A program made the translations under genes and the position numbers. A stretch of DNA of 64,000 nucleotides from NCBI GenBank assembly GCA_963662155.1, contig OY759274.1, positions 38,890,990-38,954,989 of the forward strand, in the 5' to 3' direction. Each line of letters starts with the position of its first letter. The first letter of the stretch is position 1. Of the stretch, positions 46,477 to 61,491 are shown piece after piece. This DNA comes from Lamellibrachia columna (taxonomy: Eukaryota; Annelida; Polychaeta; Sabellida; Siboglinidae). The notes below the pieces were generated by a model, which had not been told where the DNA came from, ran no database searches, and worked only from the letters and a program-made list of their open reading frames with translations.

Positions 46477-49400
46477 ATGTCGATTAGCAAGGGCCTGATT
46501 TGTCTGTGTCTGCTTTCTGCCGTAGGGTCGATACTCGCAGCAGGGCCGGGTAAGATACCGTGTTTACTTCGATTGTGCACAATATCATGTCCGAAAAGCA
46601 ACTGTGTCTCCTAATTTTTCTGTGATTAGTCGTGATCTTAACATACCCTTACTTAAACCTAATTTTCTTTTTGATTTTGAAGGAAAATAATATAAAACCG
46701 ATGCGTTGATAGCGCGCCATATATAATTAAAGGTCCACCACGCCAAACCCACCTTTTGTACAATGCCACATAGATAACGCCGGACAACTTCTAAAAGCGA
46801 TTTATACCCTGCCTTACAGATCGTTTTACGCGATTGTTTTTTCTCTCTGTCCTTACGTAATTCTAACCATGTTGTTTAGTTTAATTAATACAATATCAAA
46901 GCAGTAGGCATTGTTGCAGTTGGCTTTTATTGATTTATTTCGAACGTTACAAATATAGGCCTCTCTATTCGCTCATTATTCAAGAATAACAGTTGTCACC
47001 TATTGCACAGCGGCGCTGTGGAGAATGAACAATACCTCTCATAAAAAGCTCAACTGCATCCGAACAAGCAGACTTTGCCCATATTGTGCTTTTCCGTATC
47101 AGATTAGAAAACCTCTTGAACAATAATCACTTCGTCACACACCGACTCTGGAGCCGCCCTGGGCAAATAGAAACACCCCTTCGTCTCTGCAAGAGTACAC
47201 GATGTGAAACCAGGTGAATGGAAAAACCCACGGTGGGGTCTCCAAAAAACTGCACTTTTGTTAGCTTGTTTATGACTGTGCAACTAACAACATAAATTCC
47301 TCTGAAATTATAATTGTGAGATCAAACAAGTTTTAACTATATACACGAAGCGACATTGCTTGCAAAGCAATAAAATCTGGATCGTGAGTATTAATATGCG
47401 ATCGTTAAGTTCAAAAATAGTACAGAACGCTGTTTTCATGGTGTGTTTAAAACCGTATTTAAATTTGGCGCTCTCTTAGCGAGAATTAATTACAGCATCT
47501 AGATTGTGCCTTTGCATAGCTGACACTTGGCCAACTTCTAGCAGACCACCACAACACCCTTACCAGAGTTCTAGGGCCGGTACTGCCAACCATGCGATCG
47601 TGCGCAAAACAAAATAAATATTTGTTATAGGTAGGTCGTGCTTCGGAGCAAAGCGGTAGTCAATATGTAGTGTGCTCGAGGTAACTATGACCGACCTGAA
47701 GAACAAGGGATGACACATTTCTGGCGCGTCAGTCGCGTGAAAGTGGCAAATGTGGCGTCGGTATAGTATGCATAACCTACATTCACACCAGGCGTCTTCG
47801 CGCACGGTGGACGTAGTACCAATTAGTTCCCTTCTGCTGGCGAACAACGCTGTGTTATTTCTGCACTGCGGCAGTGAGGTGTTTATCCGCTATAATTTCC
47901 TATGTTATTACAACTCAAGCGGTCCATTTGTGGTCCAACAACTACAGTATGTCGTCAGTATGTGAACTGATAAGGTTCCATGAGAAAATGCGGCAATTTT
48001 AAATTGTTTATACTTAATCGCAGTTAAGCCTTCTGAAAGACGCCTTTGCTAAGCAGAGATATACATCGTATAGATGTATATAAGACTACGGAAGTGACAG
48101 TTCACTCCGGGTAGCCGCGCCGCTAAATGTAGTGCAAATATTTAAAGTGGCCGGTCTTTTCAGGGCAAAACAACATTGTGGACAAGGAATGTCATGAAGG
48201 CGTATTTATTCTATACATTACATTGCCCAGCAACCCGACCAATCATAAAGCCAAACACAGCCTTCTTACAATAGAATACTACTCTGACGTGCAAACATCT
48301 TTCTCCATGAGAAACATTACTTGAACCTTCCACATTGTCGCGAAAATGGTACCTTTACCTTCTTACTGGACTTCTTGACGCAGTTAATATATGTTGATCT
48401 TATGCGTTTAGGTAATTTTTGGCCAGACGGGTGTCCTACATTTGGTCACAAGACATGTGGTCACACGACATTTGGTCATGGCACATTTATTTTAGCTTAG
48501 TAATCAGAAACATAAAACAAAATATTTATTAATAAATATTTTTTATTTAATAGCTTACTGAATCCAGTAGAGGTATAAACATGAACACGCGGGAATGTCT
48601 TTCGTTTATATTACTGTTGTTATCCGTTATTAAAGTCAACTGCCAGTGTTCGCTTTGATCCGTTCATTTCTACTACTACTCTCGCAGTCCATCTCATATT
48701 TGTTCTTATTGTTCCTGGTTTCTTTGTTATCATGCACACAATTAGCTCTTGTTGTTCCGGGTTCCTTTGTTAGCATACATACAATTTGCTCTTATTGTTC
48801 CAGGTTTCTTAGTTATACAATTTGCTCTTACTGTTCCGGGTTTCTTTGTTATCATACATACAATTTGCCCTTGTTGTTCCGTGTTTCTTTGTTATCATAC
48901 ATACAATTTGCTCTTGTTGTTCCGTGTTTCTTTGTTATCATACATACAATTTGCCCTTGTTGTTCCGTGTTTCTTTGTTATCATACATACAATTTGCCCT
49001 TGTTGTTCCGTGTTTCTTTGTTATCATACATACAATTTGGCCTTGTTGTTCCGTGTTTCTTTGTTATCATACATACAATTTGGCCTTGTTGTTCCGTGTT
49101 TCTTTGTTATCATACATACAATTTGCTCTTGTTGTTCCGTGTTTCTTTGTTATCATACATACAATTTGCTCTTGTTGTTCCGTGTTTCTTTGTTATCATA
49201 CATACGATTTGCCCTTGTTGTTCCGTGTTTCTTTGTTATCATACATACGATTTGCCCTTGTTGTTCCGTGTTTCTTTGTTATCATACATACAATTTGCCC
49301 TTGTTGTTCCGTGTTTCTTTGTTATCATACATTCAATTTGCCCTTGTTGTTCCGTGTTTCTTTGTTATCATACATACAATTTGCCCTTGTTGTTCCGTGT

Positions 49401-61400: not shown

Positions 61401-61491
61401 GGGTGCCACTGTCCACGCAGTGTCTGTGATCATGGCATCCGTCGGCGCTAGTATCCTGCTGGCTGACCAGTACACCACATCAGGTGCCTAG
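46477..61491 (+). CDS. Secreted or surface protein with eight six-cysteine modules and one EGF domain, complete
   Basis: Coding exons: 46477-46549, 51422-51506, 51794-51900, 52380-52473, 53021-53136, 53556-53670, 54207-54322, 54868-54982, 55546-55661, 56736-56856, 57104-57219, 57584-57677, 58063-58175, 58716-58824, 59225-59337, 59780-59873, 60169-60284, 60751-60829, 61314-61491. Total 2070 bp, 689 residues plus stop, all phases correct. Start chosen at GCCACCATGT (46477), which opens a signal peptide ending near SILAAGP. Then come eight modules, an EGF domain and a C-terminal hydrophobic run VHAVSVIMASVGASILLA followed by eight residues, which suggests a GPI signal or a membrane end. Several N-glycosylation sequons (NESS, NSST, NAS, NFT, NQSS). 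Not recognised as a named protein. The cysteine spacing recalls nematode DUF19/T20D4.11-like domains, offered only as an alternative to test. Confidence 0.85.
46550..48645. other. First part of the large intron before module 1
   Basis: AT-rich intron sequence with no gene or clear element recognised. The intron (46550-51421) also holds the 43-bp array. Confidence 0.4.
48700..50415 (+). repeat. 43-bp minisatellite, about 40 copies
   Basis: Unit TTTGTTATCATACATACAAT plus TTGCCCTTGTTGTTCCGTGT plus TTC, period 43. Because 43 leaves remainder 1 when divided by 3 and the unit has no stop, all three forward frames stay open for 460-560 codons; this is not a gene. Variants cluster: ACGATT instead of ACAATT fills a run of units at about 49445-49735, and the last units degrade. 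It lies in an intron of the modular gene. Confidence 0.95.
51947..52180 (+). repeat. Hexanucleotide repeat (GTGTGC)n, about 38 copies
   Basis: Perfect alternating purine-pyrimidine GTGTGC repeats over 230 bases, 46 bases after a module 1 exon. Such sequence can adopt Z-DNA. Open frames across it are artefacts. Confidence 0.97.
55162..55457. mobile_element. MITE with CCCTTATGAAAATATA termini, copy 3
   Basis: Starts CCCTTATGAAAATATA and ends near TATATGTTTATAAGG, interior with CCATGG palindromes, matching the copies at 39798 and 40210. It lies in the intron of module 4; the matching intron of duplicate module 5 (56857-57103) lacks it. Confidence 0.7.
55885..56133 (+). repeat. Microsatellite (GT)n then (GCGT)n
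   Basis: About 160 bases of GT followed by about 85 bases of GCGT, with a few interruptions (TTTG, GGTG). In the intron after module 4. Confidence 0.97.
56240..56640 (+). mobile_element. Fragment of the CR1/L2-like LINE, 3' part
   Basis: Begins with AAATATTTAATGGGTATGAA, matching the RT thumb coding part near 6905-6935 on the minus strand ([18 protein letters not shown]), has an internal gap, then matches the 3' tail through TGGCTTGGATGGCAATCTTG. Plus orientation. Confidence 0.75.
60549..60626 (+). repeat. Microsatellite (CG)n (AC)n (AAAC)n
   Basis: Short CGCGCGCG, then about 20 AC units, then AAAC units, in the intron before the EGF exons. Confidence 0.95.
60751..61491 (+). other. EGF domain and hydrophobic C terminus of the modular protein
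   Basis: Two exons, 60751-60829 and 61314-61491, give CDEHQCKNDGTC then RCTCKDGFKGEYCE, the six-cysteine EGF pattern C-x4-C-x5-C-x8-C-x-C-x8-C. No calcium-binding D-x-N/D-E consensus is clear. After a Thr-rich spacer (PLTTTAIVQV) the end is hydrophobic, then DQYTTSGA and stop at 61489-61491. Confidence 0.88.

Follow-up and report, generated by a model that had tools for sequence, protein, structure and literature searches.

An annelid gene encoding eight six-cysteine modules with profile similarity to neuritin

Gene organization and module anatomy

The window analyzed is a 64,000-nucleotide stretch of the genome of the annelid tubeworm Lamellibrachia columna (GenBank assembly GCA_963662155.1, contig OY759274.1, positions 38,890,990 to 38,954,989 of the forward strand), and positions are counted from its first letter. 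A gene of 19 exons on the plus strand at 46477-61491 encodes a protein with eight six-cysteine modules followed by an EGF domain. Joining the exons by script gives an open frame of 689 codons plus a stop, with GT...AG borders at all 18 introns and a start codon in the context gccaccATG. Each module is composed of two exons with the phase order 1-2-1. The intramodule intron is in phase 2 in all eight modules and cuts the codon directly after the TGC of Cys-3, and all nine outer module borders are in phase 1, as is the end of exon 1. The arrangement from the N to the C terminus is as follows.

46477-46549, +, exon 1 with the start codon and a signal-peptide-like sequence (residues 1-24), hydrophobic core ICLCLLSAVGSI
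46550-51421, +, first intron (4.9 kb), holding a minisatellite
51422-51900, +, module 1 (residues 25-88), exons 51422-51506 and 51794-51900, irregular cysteine spacing 6,16,7,7,19
52380-53136, +, module 2 (residues 89-158), exons 52380-52473 and 53021-53136
53556-54322, +, module 3 (residues 159-235), exons 53556-53670 and 54207-54322
54868-55661, +, module 4 (residues 236-312), exons 54868-54982 and 55546-55661, the identical module of Lamellibrachia satsuma being modeled
56736-57219, +, module 5 (residues 313-391), exons 56736-56856 and 57104-57219, a duplicate of module 4 with similar flanking introns
57584-58175, +, module 6 (residues 392-460), exons 57584-57677 and 58063-58175, weak CPG4 match (15.3 bits, E 0.031)
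58716-59337, +, module 7 (residues 461-534), exons 58716-58824 and 59225-59337
59780-60284, +, module 8 (residues 535-604), exons 59780-59873 and 60169-60284, weak neuritin match (14.2 bits, E 0.051), L. satsuma counterpart modeled
60751-61491, +, EGF domain (exon 60751-60829 and the start of exon 61314-61491), spacer, hydrophobic stretch VHAVSVIMASVGASILL, nine residues and stop

The cysteine spacing over the eight modules is C-x6-C-x16-30-C-x7/8-C-x6/7-C-x18/19-C, with module 1 atypical in having 16 residues between Cys-2 and Cys-3 and 7 between Cys-3 and Cys-4. The strict pattern occurs eight times in the real protein and not once in 1000 shuffled versions. The EGF domain is recognized by Pfam (PF00008) at residues 610-640 with 28.8 bits, above the cut-off of 21.5. 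Fourteen N-glycosylation sequons are placed within modules 2-7, and close to the C terminus a hydrophobic 17-mer (Kyte-Doolittle hydropathy 2.04) is followed by ADQYTTSGA.

The minisatellite of the first intron (48698-50416) has a 43-bp unit in about 40 copies with a 95% match; over 467 to 563 codons none of the three plus-strand frames contains a stop, and what looks like long open reading frames is repeat. Long GTGTGC, TGTG and ACAC microsatellites are also present in introns of the gene at 51951-52180, 55884-56132 and 60561-60627.

Relatives and duplication of the modules

The separately annotated L. satsuma protein LSAT2_009120 (P0001) is colinear with the window protein, with 26 substitutions over 689 residues and no gap, which gives independent support for the gene model; judged by its sequence, LSAT2_009120 is the ortholog. 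Its annotation carries 95 extra N-terminal residues before the start found in the window, hiding the signal peptide, and a piece of these residues matches window positions 44750-44806, upstream of the start codon. An earlier reading of this DNA made from the letters only, termed here the sequence-only reading, had described eight six-cysteine modules with phase 1/2/1 introns, an EGF domain, a signal-peptide-like start and a hydrophobic tail, and both the exon joining and the colinearity with L. satsuma confirm this anatomy.

Two locus tags from LSAT2_009120 is another L. satsuma protein, LSAT2_009122 (P0002; 35% identity). It contains the modules and ends in a hydrophobic stretch, and its EGF domain scores 26.8 bits (cut-off 21.5). 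As 157,904 bases is given as the longest contig for both genes, they probably lie on one contig, making LSAT2_009122 a probable neighboring paralog. Both proteins carry only "hypothetical" names, and the present comparison gives annotators a basis for naming such Lamellibrachia proteins. A third relative, P0003, has 869 residues with nine modules and a hydrophobic end. Between its modules and an EGF-like stretch (14.4 bits, below the hEGF cut-off of 29.3) is a SEA-like stretch at residues 689-769 (22.7 bits compared with a cut-off of 26.4); the Pfam scan of the window protein gave no SEA match. Because the 869 residues are encoded on a contig of 3331 bases, the P0003 coding sequence would carry little intron, as in a transcript. 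LSAT2_009122 is counted below with seven modules, since the pattern search overlooked a last module with short spacing as well as a truncated one. When the three full-length proteins were used for a profile search, LSAT2_009120 alone was returned among the 7994 candidates sharing most words. No second copy of the gene was found in the window: with P0002 and P0003 as queries, tblastn matches at E up to 1e-3 fall exclusively inside the gene.

Modules 4 and 5 are alike in their DNA from intron through exon to intron (54855-55105 and 56723-56979, 72%; 55518-55668 and 57076-57226, 81%), and this shared intron and exon sequence is direct evidence that the two-exon unit was duplicated together with its introns. 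Exons with phase 1 borders on both sides are symmetric and can be duplicated without disturbing the frame. In a tree of 32 modules (31 different) types 6 (95/92) and 8 (100/100) group with the counterparts from the relatives, with a weaker grouping for type 7 (85/88); no module history is claimed from this tree because 14 of its 28 inner branches are unresolved and long branches come together. The suggestion in the sequence-only reading of a surface protein growing by module duplication holds, with the L. satsuma paralog two tags away and the DNA shared by modules 4 and 5 both in agreement.

Duplicated modules and a neighboring paralog also fit a receptor of the immune type, or one for symbiont recognition, evolving under diversifying selection, and symbiont establishment in tubeworms is described as resembling infection in the available part of PMC6862839, which contains no mention of this protein. 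The 26 differences from L. satsuma involve no change in length and none is located in module 4, arguing against hypervariation between these two proteins, and an immune domain is absent among the Pfam matches of the window protein. An immune-type role, as had been proposed from the sequence, thus found no evidence and is very unlikely.

Similarity to neuritin and CPG4 and the predicted fold

A profile of the 24 modules of P0001-P0003 was compared with a profile of neuritin (NRN1/CPG15; a nerve growth protein) of 107 sequences, these being the ones that passed the trimming filter from 120 listed of 252 found. The hhalign alignment of the two (P 1.2e-4) places 37 columns in register and matches Cys-3, Cys-4, Cys-5 and a tryptophan eight residues after Cys-5. 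The score of 25.0 is reached by none of 150 permuted controls in which the cysteines were kept (mean 10.4, standard deviation 2.0, maximum 18.4), by none of 150 fully column-permuted neuritin controls (maximum 16.3) and not by the reversed profile (12.5). The failure of the cysteine-kept controls to reach the score indicates that the kinship rests on more than the cysteines.

All 24 modules have six cysteines, with eight residues between Cys-3 and Cys-4 in 23 and either seven (15 modules) or six (9 modules) between Cys-4 and Cys-5. The exact core Cys3-x8-Cys4-x7-Cys5 is present in 14 of the 24 and likewise in neuritin, RGM-A and RGM-B. Residues shared with neuritin are found at the position six after Cys-3 (Phe or Leu, 14/24) and eight after Cys-5 (Trp, 10/24; Tyr, 7/24). 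Neuritin is similar also in being a secreted six-cysteine domain with a hydrophobic C-terminal tail. Differences occur in the outer spacings, which are 9,24,8,7,27 in human NRN1, whereas the modules have 6 residues between Cys-1 and Cys-2 and 18-19 between Cys-5 and Cys-6, and in the overall organization, with neuritin being a single domain of ~140 residues compared with eight modules and an EGF domain in the 689-residue window protein. The accessible portions of the literature describe neuritin as a 142-residue protein (PMC12715718) with receptors that are not settled (PMC12715718, PMC4125179). From the inserts of the NRN1 isoforms (P0007 and P0008), one intron can be placed in the signal peptide, following residue 18.

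In a Pfam scan of the 24 modules of the window protein, P0002 and P0003 taken singly, 6 match NRN1 (best E 0.0098) and 7 match CPG4 at E up to 10. The best match to any single module is that of CPG4 to a module of P0002 (22.9 bits, E 1.3e-4), with positions 2-61 of each aligned. CPG4 is a family named for chondroitin proteoglycan 4, and its top rank is consistent with the main rival explanation, in which the protein would have a structural, non-signaling role in an egg coat, a tube-secreting surface or an apical extracellular matrix, and its modules would serve for packing or cross-linking. The SEA-like stretch ahead of the EGF-like one in P0003 and the 14 sequons in modules 2-7 are in keeping with such a matrix role. 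However, the CPG4 match is under the cut-off, a chitin-binding family is absent among the nine Pfam families listed for the window protein, and the hydrophobic tail favors membrane tethering, leaving the matrix role unlikely, at perhaps one chance in a handful.

Returning to kinship with neuritin and CPG4, several results weigh against it and against the functional proposal built on it below. The Pfam gathering scores are 27 bits for neuritin (NRN1, PF15056) and 32.7 bits for CPG4 (PF15481). NRN1 matches the window protein with 16.5 bits and P0002 with 22.8 bits (E 1.1e-4), both under the threshold, and CPG4 is below its own everywhere, from the 22.9 bits of the P0002 module to the 15.3 bits of window module 6. 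Matches of single modules near E 0.01 count little because unrelated families reach similar values in the same scan (DHX37_C, E 0.005, and Phospholip_A2_2, E 0.0081, one module each). The hhalign probability for modules and neuritin is only 54.6%, and the alignment spans about half of the module, with neither the first helix nor the final stretch matched. In addition, Foldseek finds no significant match in the PDB for the model of module 4 or module 8.

The estimate of kinship is lowered because of the hhalign probability and the chance matches, and on this balance the modules are probably distant relatives of the neuritin/CPG4 domains. Eight neuritin-like modules and an EGF domain would then represent a known kind of domain in a new arrangement, named by no Pfam match here. 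The sequence-only reading had placed the protein in no named family; this stands in that a Pfam search for strong matches of single modules found none and no match reaches the cut-offs, and it gives way in that the modules resemble PF15056 and PF15481. Its suggestion of DUF19 failed, as neither the proteins nor the single modules match DUF19/T20D4.11-like (PF01579) at E up to 10. Human neuritin itself has a weak DUF19 match over residues 39-111 (16.3 bits, E 0.0088, cut-off 23.2), which hints at a possible distant relationship between DUF19 and neuritin. The papers listed from the open subset of PubMed Central include none on this neuritin-like array and none on annelid or mollusc neuritin, and no listed title or abstract start concerns the neuritin fold, RGM kinship or intron positions. 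At least four listed papers contain both neuritin and RGM; the main text of PMC5603424 does not mention CPG-4.

Structure prediction of single modules, which the sequence-only reading had proposed, gives three-helix bundles for module 4 and for the L. satsuma counterpart of module 8, with predicted local distance difference test (pLDDT) values of 79.5 and 89.5. A Foldseek search of a viral library with the module 8 model returned nothing significant. The RGM N-terminal domain (PF06535; PDB codes 6z3m, 6z3j, 4uhz, and 4ui1) is at the top of both structural re-rankings, tied with unrelated bundles. It shares with the modules the predicted three-helix bundle, a similar length, six cysteines and the x8/x7 core. 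The R-G-(D/N) loop located right after Cys-5 in RGM is missing in the modules, where the residue following Cys-5 is proline in 21 of 24 and methionine, serine or threonine in the other 3. As a sequence relative RGM was rejected, with hhalign at the control level (for an RGM profile of two sequences only), and PF06535 has no match at E up to 10 in the Pfam scans of the proteins and single modules. The protein could be a multivalent growth-factor co-receptor whose modules, in the manner of the RGM N-terminal domain, bind ligands of the BMP/GDF type via helix 3 and whose array gathers ligand at the surface, and this is quite unlikely. A little less probable again is a wider scheme in which neuritin, nematode CPG4, the RGM N-terminal domain and the annelid modules would form one ancient six-cysteine three-helix family, originally growth-factor binding, with the tubeworm array serving BMP/GDF-type ligands.

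A module-profile search of solved structures returned a single chance match (E 0.64), and with the whole protein all matches among those listed are in or around the EGF domain. According to the consulted parts of the sources, the three-helix N-terminal domain of Twisted gastrulation has seven disulfides (PMC11167000) and domain D2 of GFRAL has five helices and five disulfides (PMC13234300). A GDNF-receptor profile is not among the Pfam matches of the window protein, which come from a general scan with no search aimed at that family.

Proposed surface array and other features of the window

The signal-peptide-like start, the sequons, the regular cysteines, the EGF domain and the hydrophobic tail together point to an extracellular, membrane-tethered protein, and tethering at the cell surface is likely. 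The signal peptide would direct the protein to the surface, where the tail would hold it, either through a glycosylphosphatidylinositol (GPI) anchor or by crossing the membrane once with a very short tail. The ectodomain is envisaged as eight compact three-helix modules strung together, with three disulfides expected in each, and the EGF domain would be placed next to the membrane. Repetition of the modules would expose several similar helical faces suited to multivalent binding of an extracellular protein, for which a growth factor, a receptor or another copy of the same protein are candidates. The protein may act in this way as an adhesion molecule or co-receptor, a role for which the chances are about even. 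The array would extend by duplication of the symmetric two-exon unit with the reading frame kept. Taken as a whole, a slight preference goes to the interpretation in which neuritin/CPG4-like modules, arrayed on a membrane tether, bind an extracellular protein partner multivalently.

The C-terminal tail adds to the points against this proposal. The end of the window protein possibly holds a GPI signal. Several polar or small residues come after the hydrophobic stretch in the window protein and in P0003, not in P0002; such an ending, present in two of the three proteins, is atypical of GPI signals.

A related module repeated eight times in clean two-exon units provides many sequences for locating conserved helix faces, and the natural repeat array offers a handle for solving the fold.

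Elsewhere in the window, no tRNA is present and Rfam gives no match at the gathering score. Remains of a retrotransposon lie at 6689-8801 on the minus strand, where the reverse transcriptase (PF00078) is found in two overlapping frames (75.1 and 29.4 bits, cut-off 29.6) and is probably frame-shifted because the domain is split between them. Exons of an AAA+ ATPase gene are located at 14709-24964 on the plus strand, with Pfam matches to the AAA lid in the frame 14709-15050 (30.0 bits) and to the AAA domain in the frame 19484-19828 (35.0 bits); the frame 24623-24964 appears AAA-like by eye only, without a Pfam match. A 65-bp tandem repeat of 47 copies with a 95% match occupies 15924-18981.

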